Source of the DNA: a virus
Direction: 5' to 3' (one strand)
IMG/VR virus record: IMGVR_UViG_3300037337_000110
Location: 1-63,953 of that record
DNA length: 63,953 bases
Part shown: one piece after another, positions 9,155 through 50,258 of the stretch
How the letters are laid out: each line of letters begins with the position of its first letter
Position numbering within the stretch: position 1 is the stretch's first letter
The notes under the pieces: model-generated
What the model saw: the letters and a program-made list of their open reading frames with translations, nothing else
Databases searched by the model: none
Told to the model about the DNA's origin: nothing
Program-made: the position numbers and the translations under genes

Positions 9155-9511
9155 ATGAGTCACCAAGCACCACCCCGAGCTGCGTCAACTCACTGGCAGT
9201 CCGTCGACTCCCCAGTGCCCCGCAACGCCTGGCCGCACAACGTCGAGTCGCACAACGTCGAGCCGATGCCGCGCAAGAAGTTCATCGCCAAGGGGCACGA
9301 CGCCCAGCTGCAAGAGGCGCAGATCGACCGCATCCCAGTCGAGCTGACCACGCTGAGCGGCGTTGTCGTGAGCGGCACTGTCAGTCGTCGCGACAAGTAC
9401 ACGATCAGTCTTCGTCACGGCGAGGGGGAGAACGTGGGTCGTGATGAGATTTTCTACAAGCATGCCATCGAGTCGGTGCTGCTGGTGCGAGCAACCCCAA
9501 GGGCAAACTGA
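9155..9511 (+). CDS. Hfq-like Sm-fold RNA-binding protein
   Basis: 118 residues. Residues about 46-112 align by eye with bacterial Hfq: KGHDAQLQEAQ (like KG-DPFLN-L), RIPVELTTLSGVVVSGTV (Sm1; compare RVPVSIYLVNGIKLQGQI), RRDKYTISL, and FYKHAIESV, which matches the Sm2 signature YKHAIS. An N-terminal extension of about 45 residues contains the short repeat HNVE-SHNVE. Hfq hexamers bind U- and A-rich RNA and pair small RNAs with mRNAs. It has AGGAG before the ATG and its stop shares one base with the helicase start, so the two are translationally coupled. Confidence 0.8.
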   Translation: MSHQAPPRAASTHWQSVDSPVPRNAWPHNVESHNVEPMPRKKFIAKGHDAQLQEAQIDRIPVELTTLSGVVVSGTVSRRDKYTISLRHGEGENVGRDEIFYKHAIESVLLVRATPRAN

Positions 9512-10845
9512 TGTCCGGGACGACCGCCGCGTCGACACCGCGCTACGAGTTCGGCGAAGAGTTTCAGCAGAAGATTGCCGCGCTGCTGGTGCGCGACACC
9601 CCGTTTGCCCAGATGACAGACGGCTTGGTGCTGCCCGCGTTCTTTGAGAATGCAGGTTGTGCTTCGCTGGTGATGATCGCGAACAAATACTTCGAGAAGT
9701 ACAAGAAGGCACCCGGCGACAAGATCGTGCTGGTCAACTTGCTGCGCGACGCGGCGGCGCAAAAGTTGCTGACCCCGGAGCTGCTGCGCCTGGCGGCGAT
9801 GGCGATACCGGTGCTTCTGGCAACCGATGTCTCTGACCGCGATTACGTGGCCGACGAGTGCGCAACCTTTGCCCGGCACCAAGCTGTCGGCAAGGCAATT
9901 CTTGACTCGGTTGACCTGCTGGACAAGCGCGACTTCGCCACCATCGAGAAGACCGTTCAGACGGCGCTCAGCACGGGCAAGGTCGACACGGGCGGTGGCT
10001 ACGACTACGGTGAAATGACCGACGCCCGAACCCAGGACCGCAAAGACGAAGCGGCCGGCTTGCGCCCACCCACCGGTATCACCACGGGCTTTCCAATTCT
10101 CGACGGCTACCTCTACCACAAGGGCTGGGGGCGGCGCGAGATGGCGGTGCTCATGGGCGGCCCCAAGGCGGGCAAGTCGATGGCGATGATCAACTTCAGC
10201 ATCAACGCGATCGCAGCCGGTTACCGCACGCTGTATGTGACGCTGGAAGTGGCCAGCAACATCATCGCGCAGCGCATCGACGCCAACGTCTCAGAGCGCG
10301 CAATCATGGAGCTCGGGAGTCACATCTCTGACGTGGACGCGAAGGTGAAGGCGTTCATGGCCAAAGCCGCGCCCCTGAAGATTCACGAGTACCCCACGGG
10401 CACCATGAAGCCCTCACACCTGCGCCGCCTGATCGAGCAGTACAAAAGTCAGAGCATCGTCTTTGATCTGGTGGTGGTCGATTACGCCGACCTGATGGTG
10501 CCCGAGCGCCACATGGACAACGTGCAAGAAAACTCCAAGAACGTCTATCAGCCCCTGCGTGGCATGGCGATGAGCGAGGGCTTCGCGATGCTGACCGCCA
10601 CCCAGACCAACCGCGAAGGTGCCAAGAAGACGGTGGCCACGATGACCGACGTGGCCGAAGACATCAACAAGGTGCGGATTGCCGACGTGATGATTTCCAT
10701 CAACCGAACCGAAGAAGAGGCGCGCAACGGCCGCGCCCGACTTCACTTCGCCGCGAGTCGCAACCAGCGCTCCGGCTTTTCCGTTCTGATCGAGCAAAAC
10801 ATTGATCAGGGCAAATTTATTACAGCCGTTTTGGGCGAGGAATAG
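9511..10845 (+). CDS. replicative DNA helicase, DnaB/gp41 family
   Basis: 444 residues. A helical N-terminal domain (about 1-150) is followed by the RecA-like helicase core: GITTGFPILDGYLYHKGWGR, Walker A MGGPKAGKS (about 212-220), LYVTLEVASNIIAQR, Walker B FDLVVVDYADLM, the sensor TATQTNREG, and ASRNQRSGF near the C-terminus. It would unwind DNA at the phage fork with the primase encoded at 11414. ATG overlaps the Hfq-like stop (TGATG). Confidence 0.9.
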   Translation: MSGTTAASTPRYEFGEEFQQKIAALLVRDTPFAQMTDGLVLPAFFENAGCASLVMIANKYFEKYKKAPGDKIVLVNLLRDAAAQKLLTPELLRLAAMAIPVLLATDVSDRDYVADECATFARHQAVGKAILDSVDLLDKRDFATIEKTVQTALSTGKVDTGGGYDYGEMTDARTQDRKDEAAGLRPPTGITTGFPILDGYLYHKGWGRREMAVLMGGPKAGKSMAMINFSINAIAAGYRTLYVTLEVASNIIAQRIDANVSERAIMELGSHISDVDAKVKAFMAKAAPLKIHEYPTGTMKPSHLRRLIEQYKSQSIVFDLVVVDYADLMVPERHMDNVQENSKNVYQPLRGMAMSEGFAMLTATQTNREGAKKTVATMTDVAEDINKVRIADVMISINRTEEEARNGRARLHFAASRNQRSGFSVLIEQNIDQGKFITAVLGEE

Positions 10846-11186: not shown

Positions 11187-11414
11187 ATGAACATTTTTTA
11201 CATCAAGCTGGAACACAATTCCTTTTATTCGATTGAAGACCTTGCCGTTGAAGCTGTGCGACTTGCCAATCACCTGACTGTTTCGGTTCATTTCTATTAC
11301 GAGGGTATCAAGTGCGTGGCAGACCCAATGGGCAGCAGTGACAAGCTCGCGACCTCGGCTTTGAATGCGTCTGAAAGTCGCAGTCCACTTAGCCGGGCGA
11401 GCGCGAGGTCGTGA
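11187..11414 (+). CDS. hypothetical small protein
   Basis: 75 residues starting MNIFYIKLEHNSFYSIEDLAVEA. The first 45 residues look like a folded alpha/beta unit, the last 30 are Ser/Ala/Arg-rich. Its stop overlaps the primase ATG (TGATG), which supports it being translated. Function unknown. Confidence 0.5.
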   Translation: MNIFYIKLEHNSFYSIEDLAVEAVRLANHLTVSVHFYYEGIKCVADPMGSSDKLATSALNASESRSPLSRASARS

Positions 11415-12517
11415 TGGACCGCGTCGAACTCACCCGGGCGCTGGACAAAATAGACCTCGAAACATACCTGGACCGCGAGGGCATCGACTACCGGCCCAGC
11501 TACGGCACCAAGGGCCTGCAGCTCAACCTGGACGAGTGCCCCAAGTGCGGCGAGGGCGGGCGCAAGACCTACCTGAATGCCGAGACCGGGCTGGGCAACT
11601 GCTTTCACGGCAGCTGCGGCGAGAAGTTCAACAAGTTCAAGCTGCTGCGCTGCGTCTCGGGCCTGTCTGGTGCTGACTTTGACAACTACGTGCAGGCGCT
11701 GGCCAGCGAGCAAGGCTGGATGCCCAAGAAGGAGCGCGCGGTGTTGGTGCAGGCCGATCTGAAGCTGCCCAGCAAGATCGTGCCCCTGCCCGTCAACGGC
11801 CAGAACCTTCAGTACCTGCAAGACCGCGCGGTCAGCTTGGACAGCTGCAAGTGGTTCAACCTCTCGTATTGCCACAAGGGCTGGTGGGGCTATAAGCTGA
11901 GCGACGGCGAAGAGCGCTTTGTGTCCTACGACCAGCGGGTCATCATCCCGATTGCCGACCTGGACGGCAAGCTGGTGTCTTTTCAGGGCCGTGATGTCAC
12001 CGGTGCGCTGAAGCCTAAGTACCTGTTCCCGGTGGGCTACGCGGTGACCGGCAGCCACCTCTACAACGCCAACTCGTTCACCGACGGCCTGACGGATCAC
12101 GTTGTGGTGGGAGAGGGCGCGTTCGATGCGATCGCCATTCACCAGGCGATTGACGCGCGCAACGGGTGCGCCAACATGCTGGCAGTGGCCACCTTCGGCA
12201 TGCACCTCTCAAGCGGGCCGGGTGGGCAGCTGGAGAAGCTGGGTCTGCTGCATCAGCGCGGGCTCAAGACGGTAACGCTGATGTGGGATGGCGAGGGTAG
12301 GGCGCTGTCTTACGCGGTCAAGGCGGGGCTGCTGCTGCGTTCGGTGGGGCTGCAAGTGAACATCGCACGCCTGCCCGAAGGCTATGACCCTGCCCAGGGG
12401 CCAACTGGCAAGCCCACACCGGTGCAGGTGGTGGTTGACGCCATCTTTCAAGCCCAGCGTCTGACCAACCTCACCGCGATTCGGATCGCTCACGCGGCCA
12501 ACCAAATGTCCAAGTGA
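11414..12517 (+). CDS. DNA primase, DnaG type with zinc finger and Toprim
   Basis: 367 residues. N-terminal zinc-binding part with CPKCGEGG and NCFHGSCG (about 35-65), a middle domain, and a Toprim domain: VVVGEGAFDAIAI (acidic motif, about 235-247) and LMWDGEGRAL (about 287-296) in place of DxD. It makes RNA primers for the fork with the helicase at 9511. The ATG at 11414 overlapping the upstream stop was chosen over the GTG at 11411. Confidence 0.85.
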   Translation: MDRVELTRALDKIDLETYLDREGIDYRPSYGTKGLQLNLDECPKCGEGGRKTYLNAETGLGNCFHGSCGEKFNKFKLLRCVSGLSGADFDNYVQALASEQGWMPKKERAVLVQADLKLPSKIVPLPVNGQNLQYLQDRAVSLDSCKWFNLSYCHKGWWGYKLSDGEERFVSYDQRVIIPIADLDGKLVSFQGRDVTGALKPKYLFPVGYAVTGSHLYNANSFTDGLTDHVVVGEGAFDAIAIHQAIDARNGCANMLAVATFGMHLSSGPGGQLEKLGLLHQRGLKTVTLMWDGEGRALSYAVKAGLLLRSVGLQVNIARLPEGYDPAQGPTGKPTPVQVVVDAIFQAQRLTNLTAIRIAHAANQMSK

Positions 12518-20892: not shown

Positions 20893-23013
20893 ATGCAAAG
20901 CAAAGACATTTCTGTCATCCGCCAGTCGATCGGGAAGATCGTCTCCATGCTGACCAACCAGTCCATCGCGGTGACCCAGCGCGGCACCGATGCTTATGTG
21001 CAGTACGACGCCAAGGGTGTTGTCAAGCGGGTGAACATCCCCTACCTTGCCGATGACGCGACACCTGGGTTTATCGCCGCGGTGCAGGGCTTTCTTGATC
21101 ACGAGGTCGGCCACGTCTTGTTCACCGACCCCAAGGTCTTGCTTGCGGCCAAGAAGCAGCCCGGGCGCACGGCGAACCTGCACAACACCATTGAAGATGT
21201 CTACGTGGAGCGCAAGATGTCTGAGGCGTTTGCGGGCAGCGGCGGCAACCTCGATGCCCTGCGCTTCTTCTACTTGAACGATGTGGTGAAGAAGAAAGTG
21301 AACGAAGCGGTTGCCGCCGGCAACGAGACTGCCGCCTCGGGTTATGCGGCCGTGGTGAAGTTTCGTGCTTGGGGCGGTCAGCTCGCCGCGATCGACTTCT
21401 TGAAAAACAACCCCAAAATTGATGCGCTGGCAGCTGACATTGAAAGCAAGCTTGGGCCAGCGTTCATCAAAGCGATGGGTCAGGTCAAGAGCAGCAAGGA
21501 AGCACTCGACCTGGCCAAGCAAGCATACGACCTGCTGAAGCCAGCGCCCCCGCCAGCGCCCGTCGCACCCTCACCACCCAGCCCAGCGCCCCCACCAGTG
21601 CCAGCACCACCCGCAGACGATGAAGAAGAGCAGGACGAAGGTGCGGGCGACGGGCCTGCACCCACCGGCTCTACCGACCAGGAAGAGCAGGGCGAGGCGG
21701 ACCCCACGGTTCCCTCGGGCGCATCGGGCGACCAAGACGAAGAGCCGTCATCGGCAAGCGTGTCAGCTGCTGAAGACGACAGTGGCAAGCAGCGAGACGA
21801 TGACGACGAAAATGGGGAAACCGACATGGACTCAGACACCGCTGGCACCGGTGGTGAGTCGGACACTGATGTCGGTGAGAACCAGGAGCCCACCGTGCCC
21901 GAAGAGGCCAGCCCATCAGAAGGCGATGACGCGCCCCCCGATGATGAAGAGCAGCCTTCAGATGACCAAGAAGAGCAGGTCGGCCCGATGGTGACCCATG
22001 CCGGCGCGAAGTCTGGTGAGCATGCACCGGGCGACCAGGGCGATCTGAGCGAGGCGTTTGAGCAACCGATGGACTTCGACAGCGATGTTGCCAAGCAGCT
22101 TAGTCAGAATGCAAAAAAGGAACTCAGTCACTCGCAATATCGTGTCTTTTCTACTGACTGGGACACGCTCAAGTCAGCGCCCCTGGGGGACCATAAGGCA
22201 GTGGAGGTCATGGTTAAAGTCACTGACCACATGGTCGCGGGCATTCAGAAAAGCCTTGAGCGTGCGATGGCCGCAAAAGCGCGCAAGACCTGGAGCGGTG
22301 GTCAGCGTCGCGGTCGCATCAACCCCGGCTCCCTGTTTCGCACCGCTGTCGGCGATGACCGGGTGTTTCGCAAGCGCTACGAGACAGCGGCCAAGAACAC
22401 CGCCGTCACGTTGCTCGTTGACTGCTCCGGCTCGATGAGTGGTGAGCGTTTGGCACTTGCTGCACAGGCAGCTTACGCGCTGTCATCAACCCTTGAGCGC
22501 CTGAAGATCAAAAACGAAGTTCTTGGATTCACCACCGAAGGCTGCAAAGAGATGGCGCTGGCGATCAGCCGTGAGTCAAACGCTTACGATTTCTACAGTC
22601 GCTCTAGCTCGATCTACATGCCACTGTTCAAGGGCTTCGATGAGCGGCTGACGATTGATGCGAAGTTGCGTCTCGCCGCCCTGACGAACAAACCGATGTG
22701 GTTGCGCGAGAACGTCGATGGCGAGAGTGTGCAGATCGCTGCAAACAGGCTCAGGAAGCAGGTTGCCGAGCGTCACGTTTTGATCGTTCTGTCTGATGGC
22801 ATCCCAGCATGTGAGGGCACCAGCGCCGCGCTTTCCAACCACCTCAAGCGGGTCGTCTTGGAGCTCCCCTCGCAAGGTGTCGAGGTCGTCGGTATCGGCA
22901 TTCAGACCACCGATGTGGCCATGTTCTACCCCAGGAACTTGACGCTGAACAACATCGAATCGCTGCCGGTCACCGTGGTCAACGAGCTGTCCAGACTGCT
23001 GCTGGCTGTGTAA
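20893..23013 (+). CDS. cobT: CobT-like VWA protein with HExxH domain
   Basis: 706 residues. N-terminal domain (1-225) has FLDHEVGHVLFTD, an exact HExxH zinc-peptidase motif (about 73-77), and NTIEDVYVERK, whose acidic residues could complete the site. A long acidic, Pro/Glu/Asp/Ser-rich linker (about 216-395) follows. The C-terminal VWA domain (about 495-706) has the MIDAS motif LLVDCSGSMSG. Phage CobT/CobS-like pairs are known in large phages and are named after cobaltochelatase; a real cobalamin role is unproven. MoxR-AAA/VWA pairs usually act as chaperone or remodelling machines, and the partner ATPase is the next gene. Confidence 0.8.
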   Translation: MQSKDISVIRQSIGKIVSMLTNQSIAVTQRGTDAYVQYDAKGVVKRVNIPYLADDATPGFIAAVQGFLDHEVGHVLFTDPKVLLAAKKQPGRTANLHNTIEDVYVERKMSEAFAGSGGNLDALRFFYLNDVVKKKVNEAVAAGNETAASGYAAVVKFRAWGGQLAAIDFLKNNPKIDALAADIESKLGPAFIKAMGQVKSSKEALDLAKQAYDLLKPAPPPAPVAPSPPSPAPPPVPAPPADDEEEQDEGAGDGPAPTGSTDQEEQGEADPTVPSGASGDQDEEPSSASVSAAEDDSGKQRDDDDENGETDMDSDTAGTGGESDTDVGENQEPTVPEEASPSEGDDAPPDDEEQPSDDQEEQVGPMVTHAGAKSGEHAPGDQGDLSEAFEQPMDFDSDVAKQLSQNAKKELSHSQYRVFSTDWDTLKSAPLGDHKAVEVMVKVTDHMVAGIQKSLERAMAAKARKTWSGGQRRGRINPGSLFRTAVGDDRVFRKRYETAAKNTAVTLLVDCSGSMSGERLALAAQAAYALSSTLERLKIKNEVLGFTTEGCKEMALAISRESNAYDFYSRSSSIYMPLFKGFDERLTIDAKLRLAALTNKPMWLRENVDGESVQIAANRLRKQVAERHVLIVLSDGIPACEGTSAALSNHLKRVVLELPSQGVEVVGIGIQTTDVAMFYPRNLTLNNIESLPVTVVNELSRLLLAV

Positions 23014-23101: not shown

Positions 23102-24295
23102 ATGAATACTGCTGTCGCCACCCCTGTCGAAATCGAAGCCCGCATCACCTGTGCCATCTGTGGTGCAAAAGTGCATGCCATCAGCATCCACTTGCAGCGC
23201 GACCACGCTGAGCTGGAGATGACCCAGACCGACTACGAAGTCAAGTACCCAGGCCACCCCGTTTTTAGCGAAGTGGTGCTCAGCAAACTCGCGGAGAAAA
23301 AGCGTCTTGCTGCCGCAACTTCAGTCACCGCTGACTTTACATCAGACTTCGAGACCGAGCCCAAGGCGTTTCACGAACTCTTTGCACTGGGTAAGGTGCG
23401 ACCGGCGCTCAACGCGCGCGGCGCCCCCATCCCGATCACCACGGTCACCAAGACGGCGCACAAGAACATGGTGCCCGACGTGGACCCGAACTATGTCTTT
23501 AACCTGGATGTGCTCAAGACCTTGTTGATGGGCATCGAAATGAACATTCCTGTGTACCTGTGGGGTCACTCGGGTACTGGCAAGACCACGATCTATGAGC
23601 AGATCGGAGCCCGCACCGGTCGGCCCATGCTGCGTGTGCAGCACACGGCGAACATGGAAGAAGAGCATGTGCTGGGTGGGTGGCGTCTGCGCGACGGCAA
23701 GACTGTCTTTGATCTGGGGCCGCTCCCGATGGCCATGAAGTTCGGTTGGGTCTACCTGGCTGACGAATACGACTTCGGCCGCCCCGAGGTGCTCTCGCTG
23801 TACCAGCCGGTGCTTGAGGGCAAGCCGCTGGTGATCAAGGAGGCAGACCATGAAAACCGCGTGATTCGCCCACACCCCGGGTTTCGCTTTCTCGCCACCG
23901 GTAACACCAACGGTCAGGGCGACGAAACCGGCCTGTATGTGGGCACGACGATTCAAAACGCCGCGAACTACGAGCGTTTCGGCATTGTCGAAAAGATGCC
24001 CTTCATGGCGGAAGAGCTTGAGGTGGTGCTGGTCAGTCAGCAGGCGCAAATCCCCCTGCTGGATGCAAAAAAGCTGGTCGACTTCGCCAAGCGCATTCGG
24101 GCCGAGTTCGAGAGCTCCAAGATCAGCAACCCCATTTCGCCACGCTCGCTGATCTTCGCCGGTCGCTTGGGCATGGCTCGCTCGAACTACCTGTATGGGC
24201 TGGAGAAGTCGTACATCAACCGCCTGACCGAAGTTGACCGCGAGGCCGCGATGCAGCTGGCCAACCGCGTGTTTGGTGCCAGCAAGACCGCATAA
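23102..24295 (+). CDS. cobS: CobS/MoxR-like AAA+ ATPase with zinc finger
   Basis: 397 residues. N-terminal Cys2His2-like finger, CAICGAKVHAISIHLQRDH (residues about 17-35), then a MoxR/CobS-class AAA+ core: Walker A WGHSGTGKTT (about 157-166), NMEEEHVLGGW, Walker B FGWVYLADEYDFG, sensor 1 FLATGNTNG and sensor-2-like NPISPRSLIFAGR. It should form the ATPase ring that works with the VWA protein encoded upstream. The C-terminus reaches the ribosome-binding site of the sigma-like gene. Confidence 0.88.
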   Translation: MNTAVATPVEIEARITCAICGAKVHAISIHLQRDHAELEMTQTDYEVKYPGHPVFSEVVLSKLAEKKRLAAATSVTADFTSDFETEPKAFHELFALGKVRPALNARGAPIPITTVTKTAHKNMVPDVDPNYVFNLDVLKTLLMGIEMNIPVYLWGHSGTGKTTIYEQIGARTGRPMLRVQHTANMEEEHVLGGWRLRDGKTVFDLGPLPMAMKFGWVYLADEYDFGRPEVLSLYQPVLEGKPLVIKEADHENRVIRPHPGFRFLATGNTNGQGDETGLYVGTTIQNAANYERFGIVEKMPFMAEELEVVLVSQQAQIPLLDAKKLVDFAKRIRAEFESSKISNPISPRSLIFAGRLGMARSNYLYGLEKSYINRLTEVDREAAMQLANRVFGASKTA

Positions 24296-25570: not shown

Positions 25571-28500
25571 ATGACAACCACAACACCAATTAACCCCCTG
25601 GGCGTGGCGCTCTCTGTACGCTCGGACTTCTCACTGGGTGAGAGTTCTTTTCAGATCGACCGCATCATCAAGCTGGCCAAAGAGCAGGGCTACAGTCATG
25701 TGGCTGTAGCTGACTTGATGACCGTCTCGGGCATCCCCACTTTCACCCAAAAATGTCACAAGGCGGGTCTGGTACCGATTGCCGGCGTGACGCTGCACAT
25801 CGTGGACAAGCCCACCGAAAAGCTGAAGGACAAGGTCAACAATCCCTATCGTCTCAAGTTGTACCCCAAGTCAGACCTGGGCATGCGCTCAATCTTCGCC
25901 GCACTTACCAAGTCGCTCACGGTGGAGAACTTTTACTACAACGCCCGACTCGGCCTGAGCGATGTCTGTGCCTTACAAGACGTGGTCGTCACCAGCGGCG
26001 ACCTTCGCAGTCTGTGGCACCACCCAGACGCAAAAAAGATTAGCGACCGTTTGACAGTCACCTTTGGCGATGACTACATGGTCGAGCTGGTGGCGCTGGA
26101 CACGCCCTTGTTTGACCGCACCAACACCCTGGCGCTGGAGCATCGCGGGATGCAGAAAACCATCATCACCCGCCCTGCCATGTATGCAAGCGCCGGTGAC
26201 GCGGACGCAACCGATGTGCTGCGCGCGATCACCACCAACACGCCTCTCAGTTCAGCTTGGCTTCCCCGACCCTTTCTGCGCGACCTCTACCTGATGTCGC
26301 CCGCTGGGATGGTCAAGCACTTCTCGGCAGTGGCCGCTCGCGTGCCCGGGGCGCCGATCAAGCAGTCTGTGATCAATATTGCAGAGATGGCATCGCGCTG
26401 TCGGTACGCCTTCAAGAAGCTGGCCCCCTCGATGCCCAAGATGGCAGAAAACGAGTTCATGGCTCTGGCAAAGGCATGCGCTGTTGGGTGGCAAGAGCGC
26501 TTCGCTCGCGAGGTATGGGGTCACAAGCCCGACGCAAACGAGCTGGCCACCACCTACAAGAAGCGTCTGCGCTTCGAGCTGGACGTGCTCAAAAAGATGA
26601 GCTTCTCAGGCTACTTTTTGCTGGTGCAAGACATCGTGCAATGGTCCAAGACTAACGGCATTCTAGTAGGTCCGGGTCGCGGTTCTGTGGGTGGGTCGCT
26701 GGTCGCCTACCTGATGGGCATCACGGACGTTGACCCGATTCGTTTCGACCTCTTGTTCGAGCGCTTCATCAATCCAGACCGCACTGACTTGCCCGATGCT
26801 GACCTGGACTTTATGAGCGCACGTCGTCACGAGGTCGTGAGCTACATCATTGAAAAGTATGGTCGCGAGAACGTCTCAGGAATTGTCAACTTCTCTACCC
26901 TGGGCGCAGCCAGCGCGCTGCGCGACACCGCGCGCATGCACGGTCTGCTGCCTTGGGAATATGCTTGTTCCAAGCAGATGGAAAAAGAGCACGGCGTCTC
27001 GCTGTCATTGACCGAGTCGGCCGATGCGGTGCCCGACATCGACAAGTTTAGAAACGACCACCCATCCATCTGGGACCACGCACTGCGTCTAGAAGGTGCC
27101 AACCGATCGCTCAGTCAGCACGCCGCCGGTGTGGTGGTCGCGGGCGAGCCGGTGCTGAACCGTGCAGTGGTGAGTGCCAGGGACGCAAAAGCCCTGCCGG
27201 TTGCGCAGTGGGATAAGTCCAAGGTCGAAGACTTCGGTTTGATCAAGATTGACGTGCTGGGTCTGAACACGCTGGACCTGATTGGGGTCGCGCTCAACTA
27301 CATCAAGGAGCGTCACTTCAAGACCATCGACATTCTCTCGCTGCCCCTGAATGACAAGCGCGTGCTAAAGGCTTTTGGTAATGGTGACACCACGGGGGTC
27401 TTTCAGTTCACCGGTGGCGGTATGAAGAGCTTGCTCAAGCAAATGGCGATGGGCGGGTCACTCACCTTCGACGACATCTGCGCCGCAACCGCGCTGTTTC
27501 GACCAGGGCCACTTGATGCCGGTCTATGTGACAGGTATGTGCAGGTCAAGCAGGGCGCCAGCAAGCCGTACTACGAGCATCCGGCGCTTGAAGAGTGTTT
27601 GGGTGATACTTTCGGCGTCATCACCTACCAAGAGCAGGTAATGGCCATCACGCGCAAGCTCTGCGGGTTCAGTCCGGGTGACGCCGACGGTGTGCGAAAG
27701 GCCATCGGTAAGAAGGACGCTGTGAAGATGGCGGAATATGCTGAGCGCTTTGTAGAGGGGGCTGTCAAAAGCGGCATGGAGAAGTCGCGCTCTGAGTTGC
27801 TGTGGGACACCATTCTGGGCTTCGCAGGCTACGCCTTCAACAAATCACATTCTGTGGAATATTCGCTGATCAGCTGGGTCACGATGTGGCTGAAGGTCTA
27901 CTACCCGGCCGAGTTCTATGCGGCTGCCATGACCGTCATCGACAACGATGACCAGCTCACCAACCTAGTTGGCGACGCACAGGGCAAAAAGCTCAAAGTC
28001 TTGCCACCCGATCTAAACAAAAGCTCCAACCGCATCGAGATCGAAGGTGAAGACGTGCTCTATGCCCCGTTTCAGGCGGTCAAGGGCATCAGCTCTAACG
28101 TCTCGGCAGCGCTGGTGAAGCTGCGTAAGGCAGTTGGGGGCAAGTTTAAGGTCGGCGCATCGGGCGAGGTTGTGGCGCTTGACGCCGAAGTGCAGAAAAA
28201 GGTTCTGGGTAGAAAAGTGATCACCTCGGCTGCCATCACTGGGCTTGAGCAGGTCGGTGCTTTTCACAGCGTCAATGGTGTGGGCCCCACCCCAACCCAC
28301 CCTGGCAGACTGAAGGCGCGCATCGAGCTCATGCCCGGCTTTACTTCGGACATGGTCAAGCCCGATCGCGAGCTTGCTGTCGACGGCTTGGCTTCGATCA
28401 AGATCACCAACATGGTGCGCGAGATGGCGCAGTGCGAGGGCTGTTCACTCAAAGGCGCACCGCACCCGACGCCGCGCATGGGCTCCAAGCCCAAGTTCAT

Positions 28501-28945
28501 GGTGGTGTTTGACACCCCGAGCTGGAAGGAAGAGCGCGCTGGCAAGATGCTGGAGGGTGATGCTGCCGAGGTGGTCAAGGCCGCCCTGCGCGGGGTCGGG
28601 CTCAACGCAGCTAACGGCTACTACACCGCGCTTGTGAAGTCGGTCAAGCCCAAGGAACAAAAGCAACTGAGCAACGAGCAGATCAACGGCTGCTCCAAGT
28701 TTCTCACCCAAGAGATCGACATCCTGAAACCGCCCATCATCATAGCAATGGGCTCAAATGCGGTGCGCTGGTTTAGCCCAGGCACCAAGGGCACTCCCAG
28801 CGACCTGGCTGGGAAAGTGATCTACCGTGCGGACCTGGACGCATCGGTGATCTTTGGGATAAACCCAGGCGCACTCTTTCATGACCCTAGCAAGGTCAAG
28901 CTGATTGAGGCGGCATTCGACAAACTTGGCCAACTTCTGGTCTGA
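25571..28945 (+). CDS. dnaE: DNA polymerase III alpha with C-terminal UDG-like domain
   Basis: 1124 residues. PHP domain at 10-200, but the metal-binding His of HLHxHS are lost (ALSVRSDFS), so it is probably inactive. Polymerase core: GPGRGSVGGSLVAYLMGITD and INPDRTDLPDADLDF, with catalytic Asp in PDADLDF, later FRPGPLDAG, VITYQEQVM and GYAFNKSHSVEYS. From about residue 950 the usual OB/tau-binding part is replaced by a family-4 UDG-like domain (CEGCSLKGAP, MVVFDTPSWKEERAGKMLEG, YYTALVKSVKP, NGCSKFL, IIIAMGSNAVRWF). The glycosylase motif and one cluster Cys are altered. It is the replicative polymerase; proofreading likely comes from the gene at 49641. Confidence 0.92.
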   Translation: MTTTTPINPLGVALSVRSDFSLGESSFQIDRIIKLAKEQGYSHVAVADLMTVSGIPTFTQKCHKAGLVPIAGVTLHIVDKPTEKLKDKVNNPYRLKLYPKSDLGMRSIFAALTKSLTVENFYYNARLGLSDVCALQDVVVTSGDLRSLWHHPDAKKISDRLTVTFGDDYMVELVALDTPLFDRTNTLALEHRGMQKTIITRPAMYASAGDADATDVLRAITTNTPLSSAWLPRPFLRDLYLMSPAGMVKHFSAVAARVPGAPIKQSVINIAEMASRCRYAFKKLAPSMPKMAENEFMALAKACAVGWQERFAREVWGHKPDANELATTYKKRLRFELDVLKKMSFSGYFLLVQDIVQWSKTNGILVGPGRGSVGGSLVAYLMGITDVDPIRFDLLFERFINPDRTDLPDADLDFMSARRHEVVSYIIEKYGRENVSGIVNFSTLGAASALRDTARMHGLLPWEYACSKQMEKEHGVSLSLTESADAVPDIDKFRNDHPSIWDHALRLEGANRSLSQHAAGVVVAGEPVLNRAVVSARDAKALPVAQWDKSKVEDFGLIKIDVLGLNTLDLIGVALNYIKERHFKTIDILSLPLNDKRVLKAFGNGDTTGVFQFTGGGMKSLLKQMAMGGSLTFDDICAATALFRPGPLDAGLCDRYVQVKQGASKPYYEHPALEECLGDTFGVITYQEQVMAITRKLCGFSPGDADGVRKAIGKKDAVKMAEYAERFVEGAVKSGMEKSRSELLWDTILGFAGYAFNKSHSVEYSLISWVTMWLKVYYPAEFYAAAMTVIDNDDQLTNLVGDAQGKKLKVLPPDLNKSSNRIEIEGEDVLYAPFQAVKGISSNVSAALVKLRKAVGGKFKVGASGEVVALDAEVQKKVLGRKVITSAAITGLEQVGAFHSVNGVGPTPTHPGRLKARIELMPGFTSDMVKPDRELAVDGLASIKITNMVREMAQCEGCSLKGAPHPTPRMGSKPKFMVVFDTPSWKEERAGKMLEGDAAEVVKAALRGVGLNAANGYYTALVKSVKPKEQKQLSNEQINGCSKFLTQEIDILKPPIIIAMGSNAVRWFSPGTKGTPSDLAGKVIYRADLDASVIFGINPGALFHDPSKVKLIEAAFDKLGQLLV

Positions 28946-28953
28946 AAGAAAAC

Positions 28954-29454
28954 ATGGCAACCGAAGACACCACTTTGATCAAATTCATCGACTCTGAACA
29001 GGTGAAGCAAGACCTCATCTTTGACATCGCCGACATCAATGGGGCGATGCAAAAGCATGCGGCCATGTACGTTCACTATGCCGGCGTGAGCGTGCGCGCT
29101 CGCACCCAGTGGGACGTGTGGAAGCAACGTCTGGAAATTCTGGAGGGGCAGCTCGACGGCATCTACCGCACTGCGCTGAAGGAAGAAAACCCCAAGACAA
29201 CCGAATCGCAGATTCGCTCGGCTGTGGTCAACGACGAGAAGTGGAAGCTCTATTCCAGCCGCGTGATCGGCTCCAATACCCAGTTCCGTCTGGCTGAAGG
29301 TGTCGAGCGCAGCTTTGAGCACCGCAAGGACATGCTGCTGCAAGTGGCTCGCAACTTGGCCCGGGAGCAAGAGGGGCCGATGCGCGTGATGGCAAATCAG
29401 AACGCTGGCGATGCGCGTCAGCGGCTGCTTGATTCAATGTCGAAGGGGGCGTGA
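28954..29454 (+). CDS. helical protein, possible UvsY-like recombination mediator
   Basis: 166 residues, mostly charged helix (AGVSVRARTQWDVWKQRLEI, VERSFEHRKDMLLQVARNL), with no enzyme motif. It lies between the polymerase and the SSB gene, near RecA. Proteins of this size and composition at this place in phage genomes are often linked to the UvsY mediator that loads recombinase on SSB-coated DNA. The match is by pattern and position only. Confidence 0.5.
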   Translation: MATEDTTLIKFIDSEQVKQDLIFDIADINGAMQKHAAMYVHYAGVSVRARTQWDVWKQRLEILEGQLDGIYRTALKEENPKTTESQIRSAVVNDEKWKLYSSRVIGSNTQFRLAEGVERSFEHRKDMLLQVARNLAREQEGPMRVMANQNAGDARQRLLDSMSKGA

Positions 29455-29481
29455 AAAGCAGAAGTTGCCTGTCTATAAATC

Positions 29482-29511
29482 AGTCAAGATTGACTTACTT
29501 TCCCCTATAAT
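29482..29511 (+). promoter_or_regulatory. operator dyad and -10 for the SSB gene
   Basis: AGTCA-AGAT-TGACT at 29482-29495, 10 nt, then TATAAT at 29506-29511. The SSB start is 70 bp further on, leaving a moderate 5' leader. Confidence 0.7.
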
Positions 29512-29580
29512 CAATGGGTGGTTGAAAAGTTTTCGATCACTCTAAAAACCTCAAAACTGTCACTCTAAAGGAACAACTAA

Positions 29581-30573
29581 ATGTCTGCACTTCTCGCACT
29601 TTTGCACAAGAAAAAACAAGATATGGCCGCATCCCGCAAGGGCTACACGGCTAAGGTTCCCTCGGGCAGCTCGCGCTGGCGGATCATGCCCTCGTGGCGC
29701 GGTAGCGCGGATCAGCCTTTCTGGCATGACTTCGGGCAGCACTTCATCAAAGATTCGTCGGGCACCATTTTGGCGATCTACATGTGCGTGGACAAAACCT
29801 TCGGCAAACCCTGCGATGTCTGTGACGCTATCAAGCAAGGCATGAACGGCGCAACCGACGAATTGACCATGAAGGTGCTGAAAGATGCCAAGGGCGGCAG
29901 CAAGGTGCTGGTCAACGCTCTTCACCTGGACAGTCAAGACCCCGGCAAGGTTCAAATTGTCGAACTGCCACCAAGCGTCTTTGACCAGTTCATCGCGATT
30001 GCCTCTGAGTGGGAAGAGGCGGGCGAGACGGTGTTCGGTGCATCGGGCAAGGACATCATCATCAACCGCAGTGGCGATGGTCTGAATACCAAGTACACCG
30101 TGCAAGTGGCGGCAAAGACAACCTCTGTACCAGCTAGCGTCGAGGGCAAGCTCAACAACCTGGACGAGTACGTCGCTCAGGAGTCGAGCGAGTTGCATTC
30201 GCGCGCCTTGAACTCGGTGCGCTCTGTCTCGGGTCTGCTCCCGGCACCGACACAACACGGTGGTGGTCTGCCCCTGGCGGCCCGCTCTGCCATGTTGCTC
30301 GAAGAAGAGCCGGCAATGACCGTCATTGCGTCACCGCCCAAGCGCACCGCACCGACTGCTGCCCCCGCTGTCTTCGACTTCGAGGATGTGCCTGACCTGG
30401 CTGCTGCAAAGCCACCAGTGCGGGGCGCTGCGCCGACTGCACCGTGGGGAGACGAAGCTGCTGTCGCACCTGCCTCCCGTGCAGCTGCCCCTGCTGCCCC
30501 TGCTGCCCCTGCTGCCCCTGCTGCATCAACAGGTGATGCTGAGCTGGACGAGTTGCTGAACCAGTTGGGCTAA
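29581..30573 (+). CDS. single-stranded DNA-binding protein, gp32-like
   Basis: 330 residues. An N-terminal basic part (LLHKKKQDMAASRKGYTAKV) and an OB-type core with CVDKTFGKPCDVCDAI (Cys that could bind zinc, as in gp32) are followed by a long Ala/Pro linker with four AAP repeats and an acidic tip, DAELDELLNQLG, typical of SSB tails that recruit partners. It would coat ssDNA during replication and recombination. AAAGGAAC precedes the ATG. Confidence 0.8.
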   Translation: MSALLALLHKKKQDMAASRKGYTAKVPSGSSRWRIMPSWRGSADQPFWHDFGQHFIKDSSGTILAIYMCVDKTFGKPCDVCDAIKQGMNGATDELTMKVLKDAKGGSKVLVNALHLDSQDPGKVQIVELPPSVFDQFIAIASEWEEAGETVFGASGKDIIINRSGDGLNTKYTVQVAAKTTSVPASVEGKLNNLDEYVAQESSELHSRALNSVRSVSGLLPAPTQHGGGLPLAARSAMLLEEEPAMTVIASPPKRTAPTAAPAVFDFEDVPDLAAAKPPVRGAAPTAPWGDEAAVAPASRAAAPAAPAAPAAPAASTGDAELDELLNQLG

Positions 30574-30591
30574 GTCAGAAGCTGGTTAACA

Positions 30592-30618
30592 AGGGGCGGC
30601 AAGGGCTGCCCCTTTTTT
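30592..30618 (+). terminator. terminator after SSB
   Basis: GGGGC-G-GC-AAGG-GC-T-GCCCC followed by TTTTTT. Confidence 0.8.
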
Positions 30619-30628
30619 CTGAGCAGGT

Positions 30629-31576
30629 ATGAAAAAACACATCTTTTTGGTTGACGGCAACTCGCTTGCGCACGCAAATCACAATGCCAATGTTCTGACC
30701 GTGGGTGACATGCAAGTGCAGGCTATCTACGGCATGTTGCGCTCGCTGCACGCCCTGGTCAAAGCGCCGGGCAACCACGAAATCATTGTTCTGTGGGACG
30801 GGCGCGCGCAGTGGCGTCTGGACATCTACCCCGAGTACAAGGGCAACCGCACGCCGCTGGATGCAGAGGGCATTGCAAAGAAAGAAGCCTTCAAGCGACA
30901 GACCCCCTTCATCGAGAAGGCGCTGGAACTCTTGGGCATCAAACAGATTCGCTCGCCCTTGCTGGAAGCTGACGACCTGGCTGGCTACTTAGCCCGCGCG
31001 CTGTCTGCCAGGGGCTTTCGGGTCACGCTGGTCTCGGGCGACAAAGACTGGATCGCCCTGGTGGATCAAAACGTCACATGGTTTGACCCGATTCGGGACC
31101 GCACAGTGGACCTGACCAACCTGCTGGAGCGCACTGGCTACTACACCACCGAGGCGTTCGTACAGGGCAAGGCTCTGGTAAGCGATGTCTCCGACAACAT
31201 CCCAGGCATCCCAGGCATGGGTGACAAGGGCAGCGCACTGTTCTTGGCCAAGTGGCAAGACGTGAACGAGTTCTTTCACCAGGTCGATGCTGGCGAATAC
31301 ACCCCAGCGGCGCGCAAAGACAAAAAGGCAAAAAGTCTTCACCCCGAGCAAGTTCTGGCCAGCCCAGAGGGCAGGGCGATCTTTCACCGCAACGTGCAGC
31401 TGATGGACTTGCGCAAGTCACGTCGACCCGAGCCGGGCGAGGTTGTCATCAGACAGCCCGCACCCAACGCGGCGGGATTTCTGCAACTGTGTCAGCGCCT
31501 TGCGTTCGCCTCGATCGTGCGAACCGCAGTGCCCTTTCTCAGCGCATTCGGAATCTCGCACACCCCACAGGCATGA
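30629..31576 (+). CDS. 5'-3' exonuclease, FEN/PolI type
   Basis: 315 residues. FLVDGNSLAH (first Asp), VLWDGRAQWR, PLLEADDLAGYLA, LVSGDKDWIALV and the helix-3-turn-helix VSDNIPGIPGMGDKGSA supply the acidic metal-binding residues of flap-nuclease family enzymes. It would remove RNA primers and 5' flaps. Starts right after the SSB terminator. Confidence 0.9.
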   Translation: MKKHIFLVDGNSLAHANHNANVLTVGDMQVQAIYGMLRSLHALVKAPGNHEIIVLWDGRAQWRLDIYPEYKGNRTPLDAEGIAKKEAFKRQTPFIEKALELLGIKQIRSPLLEADDLAGYLARALSARGFRVTLVSGDKDWIALVDQNVTWFDPIRDRTVDLTNLLERTGYYTTEAFVQGKALVSDVSDNIPGIPGMGDKGSALFLAKWQDVNEFFHQVDAGEYTPAARKDKKAKSLHPEQVLASPEGRAIFHRNVQLMDLRKSRRPEPGEVVIRQPAPNAAGFLQLCQRLAFASIVRTAVPFLSAFGISHTPQA

Positions 31577-31639
31577 CCTGTAAACCGGGCCAGCGCATTC
31601 GCACTGAGCCCACCACAACCCTGAAACTGAAAGCAAAAA

Positions 31640-32665
31640 ATGACATTTGATATTGACAAACTGAGCAAAGAACTTCTTGACGCCGTGGGCGAGAACAGCG
31701 GCACCACCGAGCCCAACCTGTGGCTGGACATGGGCTACATGCCCTTGAACAAAATCATCAGTGGTGATCCCACCCGCGGCTTCCCGGGCGGGCGCATCAT
31801 CGAGGTGGCTGGCCCCAGCGCATCGGGCAAAACGCTGTTGGCTACGATGGCGATGATTGCGGCCCAGCGCGCTGGTGGCATCGCGATCTTCATCGACTGG
31901 GAGTGCGCCTTCAACCAAAGTTTTGCGGAGCAGCTGGGTCTGAACGGCGAGTTCCCGCACTTTCTCTACAAGCGTGCCGAGACGTGGGAGTCGGGCAACA
32001 CCTACGCGATGCAGGCTGCAGAGGCGCTGCGCAAGAAAAAGTTGATCCCCGAAAAGGCCCCGATCGTGGTGGTCTTCGATTCGATTGCGGCGGCCGTGCC
32101 CAAGTCAATGATGTACGACTCCAAGGGGGTACGTCGAGGCATCGACGAATACACGATGAACGACACCACTGCGCTGGCGCGCGCCACGTCGACCACGCTG
32201 AAGTCTATCAACCAGTACGTCGGTGAGTTCAACGCCACCGCAATCTACTTGAATCAGATTCGCACCAAGCCAGGCGTGGTCTATGGTGACCCGCGCACCA
32301 CTCCGGGCGGCGGCTCAATGGAGTTCTACGCTTCGACCCGTCTGTTCACCGGGCGCAAGAAGATCATGGCAACCGTGGCCGGCGAGAAGGAGTTCATGGG
32401 CTCGATCATCGGCATGGAGACGGTGAAGAACAAGCTGACCCGGCCGTTCCAGAATGTCGATCTGCGCTTGATGTACGACGCCGAGGGGCGCGCGGTGTTT
32501 GACTTCACCACAGGCTACATCGAAGAGCTGTGCGCGATGGGCAAACTCGAAGACAAGGCCGGGCGCGTGACGTGGGAAGGCAAGACGTACTTCAAAAGCG
32601 TGCTGGCCAAGAAGATCGACGACGAAGGCGCTTTGCCCGAGCTGGCAAAGATGTACCTGGCGTGA
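31640..32665 (+). CDS. recA: RecA/UvsX-type recombinase
   Basis: 341 residues. Walker A VAGPSASGKTLL (about 57-68), FIDWECAFN (the catalytic Glu region), Walker B IVVVFDSIAAAVPKS, loop L1/L2-region IYLNQIRTKPGVVYGDPRTT and GGGSMEFYAS, all in RecA order. Length is close to bacterial RecA. It drives strand exchange with SbcCD, the RuvC-like enzyme and SSB encoded nearby. Confidence 0.92.
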   Translation: MTFDIDKLSKELLDAVGENSGTTEPNLWLDMGYMPLNKIISGDPTRGFPGGRIIEVAGPSASGKTLLATMAMIAAQRAGGIAIFIDWECAFNQSFAEQLGLNGEFPHFLYKRAETWESGNTYAMQAAEALRKKKLIPEKAPIVVVFDSIAAAVPKSMMYDSKGVRRGIDEYTMNDTTALARATSTTLKSINQYVGEFNATAIYLNQIRTKPGVVYGDPRTTPGGGSMEFYASTRLFTGRKKIMATVAGEKEFMGSIIGMETVKNKLTRPFQNVDLRLMYDAEGRAVFDFTTGYIEELCAMGKLEDKAGRVTWEGKTYFKSVLAKKIDDEGALPELAKMYLA

Positions 32666-49640: not shown

Positions 49641-50258
49641 ATGACAACACCACCGACCCTAACCAAGCGACGCATCATCGCGGGCCTTGATCTCGAAACC
49701 ACGGGCTTGAACCAAGCCGACGGGCACCGGGTCATTGAGGTCGCTCTGATTCTCTACGACCTGGACACCCAGACACGCATCGGCCAATTCACCAGTCGAG
49801 TGAACCCACAGCGGCCCATCGACCCGGCTGCGCAAGAGGTTCACGGAATCTCTTTCGACGACCTGGCGGGCGAGCCCCTGTGGGACGTGGTCGCCCCCAA
49901 GGTAGCCACACTGCTGGGAAATTGCATGTACGTGGTGGCGCACAACGGTGAGGGCTTTGACATGCCGTTCTTGTACGGCGAGCTACTGCGCGCCGGCCGC
50001 GCGCTGCCCGCTGTGGGTCTGATCGACACCATGTTGCAGGCGCGTTGGGCAACCGCTGACGGCGCGCTACCAAGTCTGAAGGCGTTGTGCTTCGCATGCG
50101 GCGTGCCCTACGACGCCACGAAGGCACACGCCGCGCTCTTTGACACTGACGTAATGATGCAGTCTTTCTTCCCCCAGCTCGCCACCGGTTTCTTCAAACT
50201 CCCTGGCTCGCCCTATCAATTTGTCCCCCAGAAGTCAAAAGTAAAGGTCGCCAAGTGA
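49641..50258 (+). CDS. DnaQ-like DEDDh 3'-5' exonuclease
   Basis: 205 residues. IAGLDLETTGLN (Exo I, D-x-E), YVVAHNGEGFDMPFL (Exo II) and KAHAALFDTDVMMQ (Exo III, HxxxxD) are intact. It is the likely proofreading partner for the phage polymerase III alpha, whose PHP domain is degenerate. Overlaps the next GTG by 4 nt. Confidence 0.88.
   Translation: MTTPPTLTKRRIIAGLDLETTGLNQADGHRVIEVALILYDLDTQTRIGQFTSRVNPQRPIDPAAQEVHGISFDDLAGEPLWDVVAPKVATLLGNCMYVVAHNGEGFDMPFLYGELLRAGRALPAVGLIDTMLQARWATADGALPSLKALCFACGVPYDATKAHAALFDTDVMMQSFFPQLATGFFKLPGSPYQFVPQKSKVKVAK

Follow-up and report, generated by a model that had tools for sequence, protein, structure and literature searches.

A uracil-DNA glycosylase (UDG) domain within a phage DNA polymerase I has been described for PaBG (PMC7412058). 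Related UDG-like domains are carried by family-A phage polymerases (SPO1 gp31 type, PaBG gp205 and the phiLo polymerase, 9qhs), and 'Phage SPO1 DNA polymerase-related protein' is the name given to solved UdgX entries. In these family-A fusions the UDG domain is N-terminal, whereas in the DnaE polymerase analysed here it is C-terminal. A UDG also serves apart from catalysis in the D4/A20/E9 assembly of vaccinia virus: one report presents D4 as a component of the poxvirus polymerase (PMC4450493), and another describes its role there as catalysis-independent (PMC1936997). The architecture is not homologous to the present one, for D4 is a protein of its own, a catalytically competent UDG from a different family, which A20 bridges to a B-family polymerase. 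An earlier note on this DNA, made from the letters alone, had stated that UDG-like domains are known on other families of phage polymerase, and the family-A matches agree. The DnaE of SSU5-type phage-plasmids (Salmonella phage SSU5 and E. coli phage Cyrano) has the same fusion as ours, with 36-37% identity over the whole protein. None of the literature searched describes a DnaE fused to a UDG domain; earlier mention in viral-replicase surveys by Kazlauskas and colleagues is possible.

The window, by which we mean the whole stretch of viral DNA analysed (63,953 nucleotides), has at 25571-28945 on the plus strand one open frame of 1124 residues without an internal stop. It is organized as follows.

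25571..28945, plus strand: DnaE-type (C-family) DNA polymerase III alpha with a C-terminal UDG-like domain, 1124 aa
25613..26086, plus strand: PHP domain, residues 15-172 (Pfam), degenerate; compared with E. coli DnaE, His is missing at 13 and 17
26465..27262, plus strand: polymerase catalytic region, residues 299-564 (Pfam DNA_pol3_alpha), with invariant D409, D411 and D561
27269..27772, plus strand: fingers domain, residues 567-734 (Pfam DNA_pol3_finger)
27992..28276, plus strand: helix-hairpin-helix (HhH) region, residues 808 to about 902 (Pfam HHH_6 at 808-860)
28283..28384, plus strand: conserved linker, residues 905-938, HPxRLKDRIELMPGFTVDxVKADR
28385..28942, plus strand: UDG-like domain, residues 939-1124, of family-4 type by fold (Pfam UDG at 973-1107; structure model)

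The full-length E. coli alpha chain matches the window polymerase at E 5.5e-136, and the PHP, palm and fingers domains are all matched in full, which places the protein in the C family. D409, D411 and D561 are invariant in 15/15 sequences and align to the E. coli motifs PDFDVDF and VKFDFLG; judged from this alignment, the active site for polymerization is preserved. As had been noticed earlier, His is gone from the PHP domain, where ALSVRSD stands for E. coli HLRVHSD. The PHP, palm, fingers and HhH regions resemble those of bacterial DnaE (E. coli, Thermus aquaticus and M. tuberculosis alpha; Z 32-41 against solved chains), but the likeness ends near residue 910, E. coli DnaE being alignable up to about residue 891-910. 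There the UDG domain follows directly on the HhH region, occupying the position of the C-terminal OB and tau-binding domains that define canonical bacterial DnaE. Among the Pfam matches of the window polymerase (E<=1) there is no OB-fold or DnaE C-terminal family, whereas the DnaE of Streptomyces phage Zemlya still has its OB fold (Pfam). The domain order and the structure model thus uphold the earlier claim that a UDG-like domain has replaced the OB and clamp-loader contacts. A search for a consensus clamp-binding motif, which is too loose to be decisive, found none in the linker and no consistent match across the aligned sequences.

The fold of the C-terminal domain was assessed by profile and by structure prediction. 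Searched in isolation, it matches Pfam UDG at E 7.9e-11, above the Pfam cut-off, and NCBIfam UDG_fam4 at E 6.4e-16, although at 58.5 bits against a curated cut-off of 125.3; against the NCBIfam UdgX family it scores 44.3 bits, below the curated 189.95. Its best solved sequence relative is the family-4 UDG of Sulfolobus tokodaii (4zbx, 1e-11). A full-length AlphaFold model (alignment of 15 sequences; mean pLDDT 83.5) compares with DnaE at Z 32-41 over residues 8-910 and with family-4 UDGs at Z 23.6 over residues 939-1124. Modelled alone (51 sequences), the domain reached pLDDT 93.5 and pTM 0.91, with Z 24.2 against 4zbx (2.2 A, 182 residues aligned) and about 22-23 against UdgX. Family-4 UDGs (4zbx, 1ui0 and 1vk2) and UdgX together give Z 22-24 and an rmsd of 1.9-2.7 over about 180 residues, at about 20% identity to the window domain. 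These predictions confirm residues ~939-1124 as a true UDG-superfamily domain by fold, in line with the family-4 reading proposed from residue ~950 onwards, and rule out the ordinary OB/tau-binding domain that had been named as the outcome fatal to it. Further down the structure search, at rank 36, stands 9qhs, the family-A DNA polymerase of phiLo 'with modified template', whose chain matches between residues 34 and 205 (155 residues aligned, Z 14.5); by this model comparison it is a solved phage polymerase bearing the same fold.

What has changed within this fold is the active site. Pocket residues were counted over 66 aligned, non-redundant C-family (DnaE) UDG-like domains, using the catalytic assignments that we take to hold in family-4 UDGs (for example, catalytic E41 of T. 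thermophilus UDG). The positions concerned, with those of the former iron-sulfur cluster, are these.

28433..28444, plus strand: C955-x-x-C958, the first two cluster Cys, kept
28463..28465, plus strand: H965, co-varying with three Cys, candidate fourth metal ligand
28511..28513, plus strand: D981, in the place of the catalytic Glu (E41), Asp in 66/66
28640..28642, plus strand: S1024, replacing the third cluster Cys (VKC to VKS)
28691..28693, plus strand: C1041, the fourth cluster Cys, kept
28862..28864, plus strand: N1098, in the place of the motif-2 His, Asn in 61/65 domains with a residue there

The alignment bears out the earlier report of a changed GEAPG-type motif, which reads FDTPS with Asp at the E41 place, and adds a change that it missed, the replacement of the motif-2 His by N1098, so that motif 2 reads NP. 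The P43 equivalent is Pro in 63/66 domains and E987, the E47 equivalent, is Glu in 59/66. The stacking Phe (F54 equivalent) is Leu in 51/66 and Phe in 5/66, and the uracil-binding Asn is replaced by T, S or A in 62/66. The window domain therefore has neither the GE[AG]PG motif 1 with its catalytic Glu nor the motif-2 His and uracil-binding Asn of active family-4 UDGs, and SSU5-type members diverge still further. Because residues of both recognition and chemistry are replaced in nearly all 66 sequences, ordinary uracil excision by the domain is unlikely. D981, by contrast, is shared by all 66 domains and by three aligned family-A fusions, which suggests a pocket that is still of importance in itself, rebuilt and not abandoned.

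The cluster positions tell a related story. CxxC and the fourth Cys are held in common with family-4 UDGs and UdgX, but the third Cys is kept in 0/66 domains, and the window domain does not have the four-Cys Fe-S cluster of active family-4 UDGs; both the Ser in the VKC motif and the surviving CxxC had been read correctly before. The three aligned family-A fusions, unlike the window domain, keep all four cluster Cys and the motif-2 His. Among the 66 domains, C955, C958, H965 and C1041 are all-or-none, present in 58 (57 with all four and one cut by a contig end, its three held positions matching) and absent in 8. Since the lost Cys is offset by a co-varying His, these residues probably form a putative CCHC metal site, kept in most members. 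On the polymerase tree, where L018 and L015 have identical cores, the pattern needs several changes. The close relative L005 (L005:5813-6394; 65% identity) has lost all four residues together and kept the domain, and is thus a natural test of the need for the metal site. SSU5 and Cyrano have no CCHC set and yet keep CobS/CobT, so the idea that these neighbouring proteins insert metal into the site is not supported.

The fusion is not confined to this phage. With the whole protein, tblastn found it over >=80% of its length in 30 phage records (Rhizobium, Stenotrophomonas, the Pseudomonas nickie group, SSU5/Cyrano and Klebsiella relatives); the domain alone matched 47, among them family-A polymerases from phages of Lysinibacillus, Exiguobacterium, Pseudomonas and Serratia (best E 1e-12), in which Pfam puts the UDG domain at the N-terminus, ahead of the 3'-5' exonuclease and polymerase domains. 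Scans of IMG/VR gave 29 and 80 loci, some of them overlapping, and in all more than 60 non-redundant viral sequences carry the C-terminal fusion. In PLSDB, 990 plasmid records matched, most carrying the fusion in part or whole; they are mostly ~110-kb phage-plasmids called non-mobilizable, from Klebsiella, Escherichia, Acinetobacter and Enterobacter, with a minority of ordinary UdgX proteins (for example, on a Sinorhizobium megaplasmid). The bacterial genome contigs scanned gave a single match, in a metagenome-assembled bin. In the polymerase tree, a single branch (SH-aLRT 97) separates 62/62 fusion rows from ten DnaE without the domain, with long branches and an outgroup end that is unsure. 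As far as these sequences go, the fusion is widespread and old, in one clade of phages and phage-plasmids; the architecture that the earlier note had found striking, and proposed to survey in other phages, is real but no single oddity. Nei-Gojobori dN/dS for the domain ranged from 0.07 to 0.18 over seven usable pairs (several with high, rough dS) and in six of them lay under the polymerase-core value: 0.143/0.168 for the window and L002, and 0.078/0.101, 0.082/0.170, 0.065/0.130, 0.105/0.153 and 0.091/0.204 (domain/core) for five others; for L003-L004 it was slightly higher (0.183 against 0.161). By this estimate, purifying selection on the domain is about equal to that on the catalytic core or stronger.

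The gene lies in a replication set, of which the following members were identified.

9511-10845, plus strand: DnaB-like helicase
11411-12517, plus strand: DNA primase
20893-23013, plus strand: CobT-like VWA protein, conserved upstream neighbour
23102-24295, plus strand: CobS-like AAA+ ATPase, conserved upstream neighbour
28954-29454, plus strand: protein without assigned function, first of the downstream module (28954..32665)
29581-30573, plus strand: SSB, downstream module
30629-31576, plus strand: 5'-3' exonuclease, downstream module
31640-32665, plus strand: RecA, downstream module
49641..50258, plus strand: DnaQ-like 3'-5' exonuclease encoded apart from the polymerase, probably its proofreading subunit

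The window also encodes a ligase, a ribonucleotide reductase and a full-length match to thymidylate synthase. The order CobT-CobS-DnaE-SSB-exonuclease-RecA is kept across fusion phages at loci with enough flank. Phage records annotate the CobT/CobS-like neighbours as cobalamin genes; a MoxR/VWA-type pair, with a possible part in replication, is more likely. A DnaQ-like exonuclease was found in 10/10 records searched (the window phage and nine relatives), which gives the degenerate PHP domain an ordinary reading, in keeping with E. coli, where proofreading also acts in trans. A search of ten records for a beta clamp gene (PF00712) found none. Two phages with a DnaE but no UDG domain also have no clamp gene, as do the family-A fusion phages, so the missing clamp is no specific sign that the domain stands in for one, and clamp loss is weakened as proof of a role in processivity.

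We tentatively favour, at a little under an even chance, a role for the domain as a non-excising, DNA-gripping module of the replicase. A DnaE-type phage replicase without OB and tau-binding domains would carry in their place a UDG fold that does not excise uracil and acts as a processivity module, keeping the replicase bound to the template or to duplex DNA; C955, C958, H965 and C1041 would bind metal and stiffen the domain in most members, and the phage DnaQ-like exonuclease would supply proofreading in trans. The points that we count for gripping are the UDG fold, its place after the HhH region, the replaced pocket residues, the low dN/dS, the single clade, the all-or-none CCHC set, the clamp gene in 0/10 and the DnaQ-like exonuclease in 10/10 records, and the vaccinia precedent. 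Against it, host clamps could serve instead, phage PaBG is reported to have a polymerase III beta subunit alongside its UDG-containing polymerase I (PMC7412058), and the strict conservation of D981 suggests a pocket function of which plain gripping has no need.

This last point leads to the main rival to gripping, template-base reading, in which the pocket would recognise a base, uracil or phage-modified, without cutting, and would stall or help the polymerase. Archaeal B-family polymerases respond to template uracil, by other means. We regard such reading as possible but rather unlikely. It would account for D981, the 9qhs match is to a polymerase solved, by its title, with a modified template, the family-A fusions occur in SPO1-type phages, and those of Almagne and Serbin adjoin dCMP deaminase and thymidylate synthase genes. 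On the other side, the uracil-contacting Asn and stacking Phe are mostly lost from the C-family domain, and in the window, for all its thymidylate synthase, no gene for base modification turned up in the ORFs scanned (part of the total). The earlier proposal that the domain reads template uracil fares accordingly: no uracil-specific residue set is kept, but the invariant Asp leaves base reading open. A bolder form of this reading, which we consider unlikely, is that in one lineage of phages and phage-plasmids the repair fold now at the clamp-loader end of a bacterial-type replicase had its pocket rebuilt as a non-cutting base sensor, inspecting the template base by base during copying, the same invention having arisen in, or being shared with, family-A phage polymerases.

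Distinctly unlikely, in our estimate, is a protein dock, replacing tau and clamp contacts by binding the host clamp, the phage SSB, the helicase or a CobS/CobT-like protein. The domain does sit where the clamp-loader contact region would be, and the conserved gene order would suit such partners, but conservation within it falls on the former active-site motifs no less than on its other parts. Asn in motif 2 is also known in MUG-type enzymes, and an active DNA glycosylase of changed specificity (D in motif 1, N in motif 2), with which the replicase would repair while copying, could in principle use D981 in place of Glu beside the mostly kept E987 and the NP of motif 2; it is nonetheless very improbable, as the uracil-contacting Asn, stacking Phe and motif-2 His are lost together, the SSU5-type members have diverged even more, and abasic sites made in a template under copying would be harmful. 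That the domain is a chimeric-contig artefact or a dead passenger has a negligible chance, for it has the loss of catalytic residues and nothing beyond in its favour, against strong purifying selection and recurrence of the same fusion in cultured phages (of Pseudomonas, Rhizobium and Stenotrophomonas, and of SSU5 type) and many independent genomes.

Beyond its proposed role in gripping DNA, the domain matters as a related rebuilt UDG fold at the opposite end of an unrelated polymerase family, strongly selected and present in a large group of clinically common phage-plasmids, and its role becomes testable, as polymerases with and without it can be compared. Database names also need correcting. 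PHROG 4335 (421 positions, 'unknown function') matches window 27767-28927, that is, DnaE residues 733-1119, and is therefore the C-terminal part of the polymerase with the UDG-like domain, and split copies on plasmids carry the label 'uracil-DNA glycosylase family protein'.

Several relatives are interrupted. The DnaE proteins of SSU5 and Cyrano (L033 and L035) differ from that of the window by the same ~50-aa in-line segment before FNKSHS (AGWIDVEMEDGTTQRIHRAEHFKCEDGALRTVEEALEAG in SSU5), which by eye looks like an intein/Hint-like beta segment and has no significant Pfam match. In L102:375-1859 an intein-like sequence (CFLAGHEVVINTDGETKKIEDFEIGD..), whose Pfam match to intein splicing (4.6e-6) falls below the cut-off, interrupts the polymerase frame after GPGRGS. 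Elsewhere (L013, L014, L069, L085, L093, L107, L121 and other loci) dnaE is split into two ORFs between residues ~731 and 732. A group I or II intron was set aside, there being no Rfam match, and in those checked (L013, L014, L069, L093 and L107) the two halves are separated by an ORF resembling an HNH/NUMOD4 homing endonuclease. A tail of ~45 aa (..VELEDG..VHR..K..C.DG..RT..EA..) is usual on the N-half, the C-half often starts MKIKS, and the two halves may work as separate subunits.
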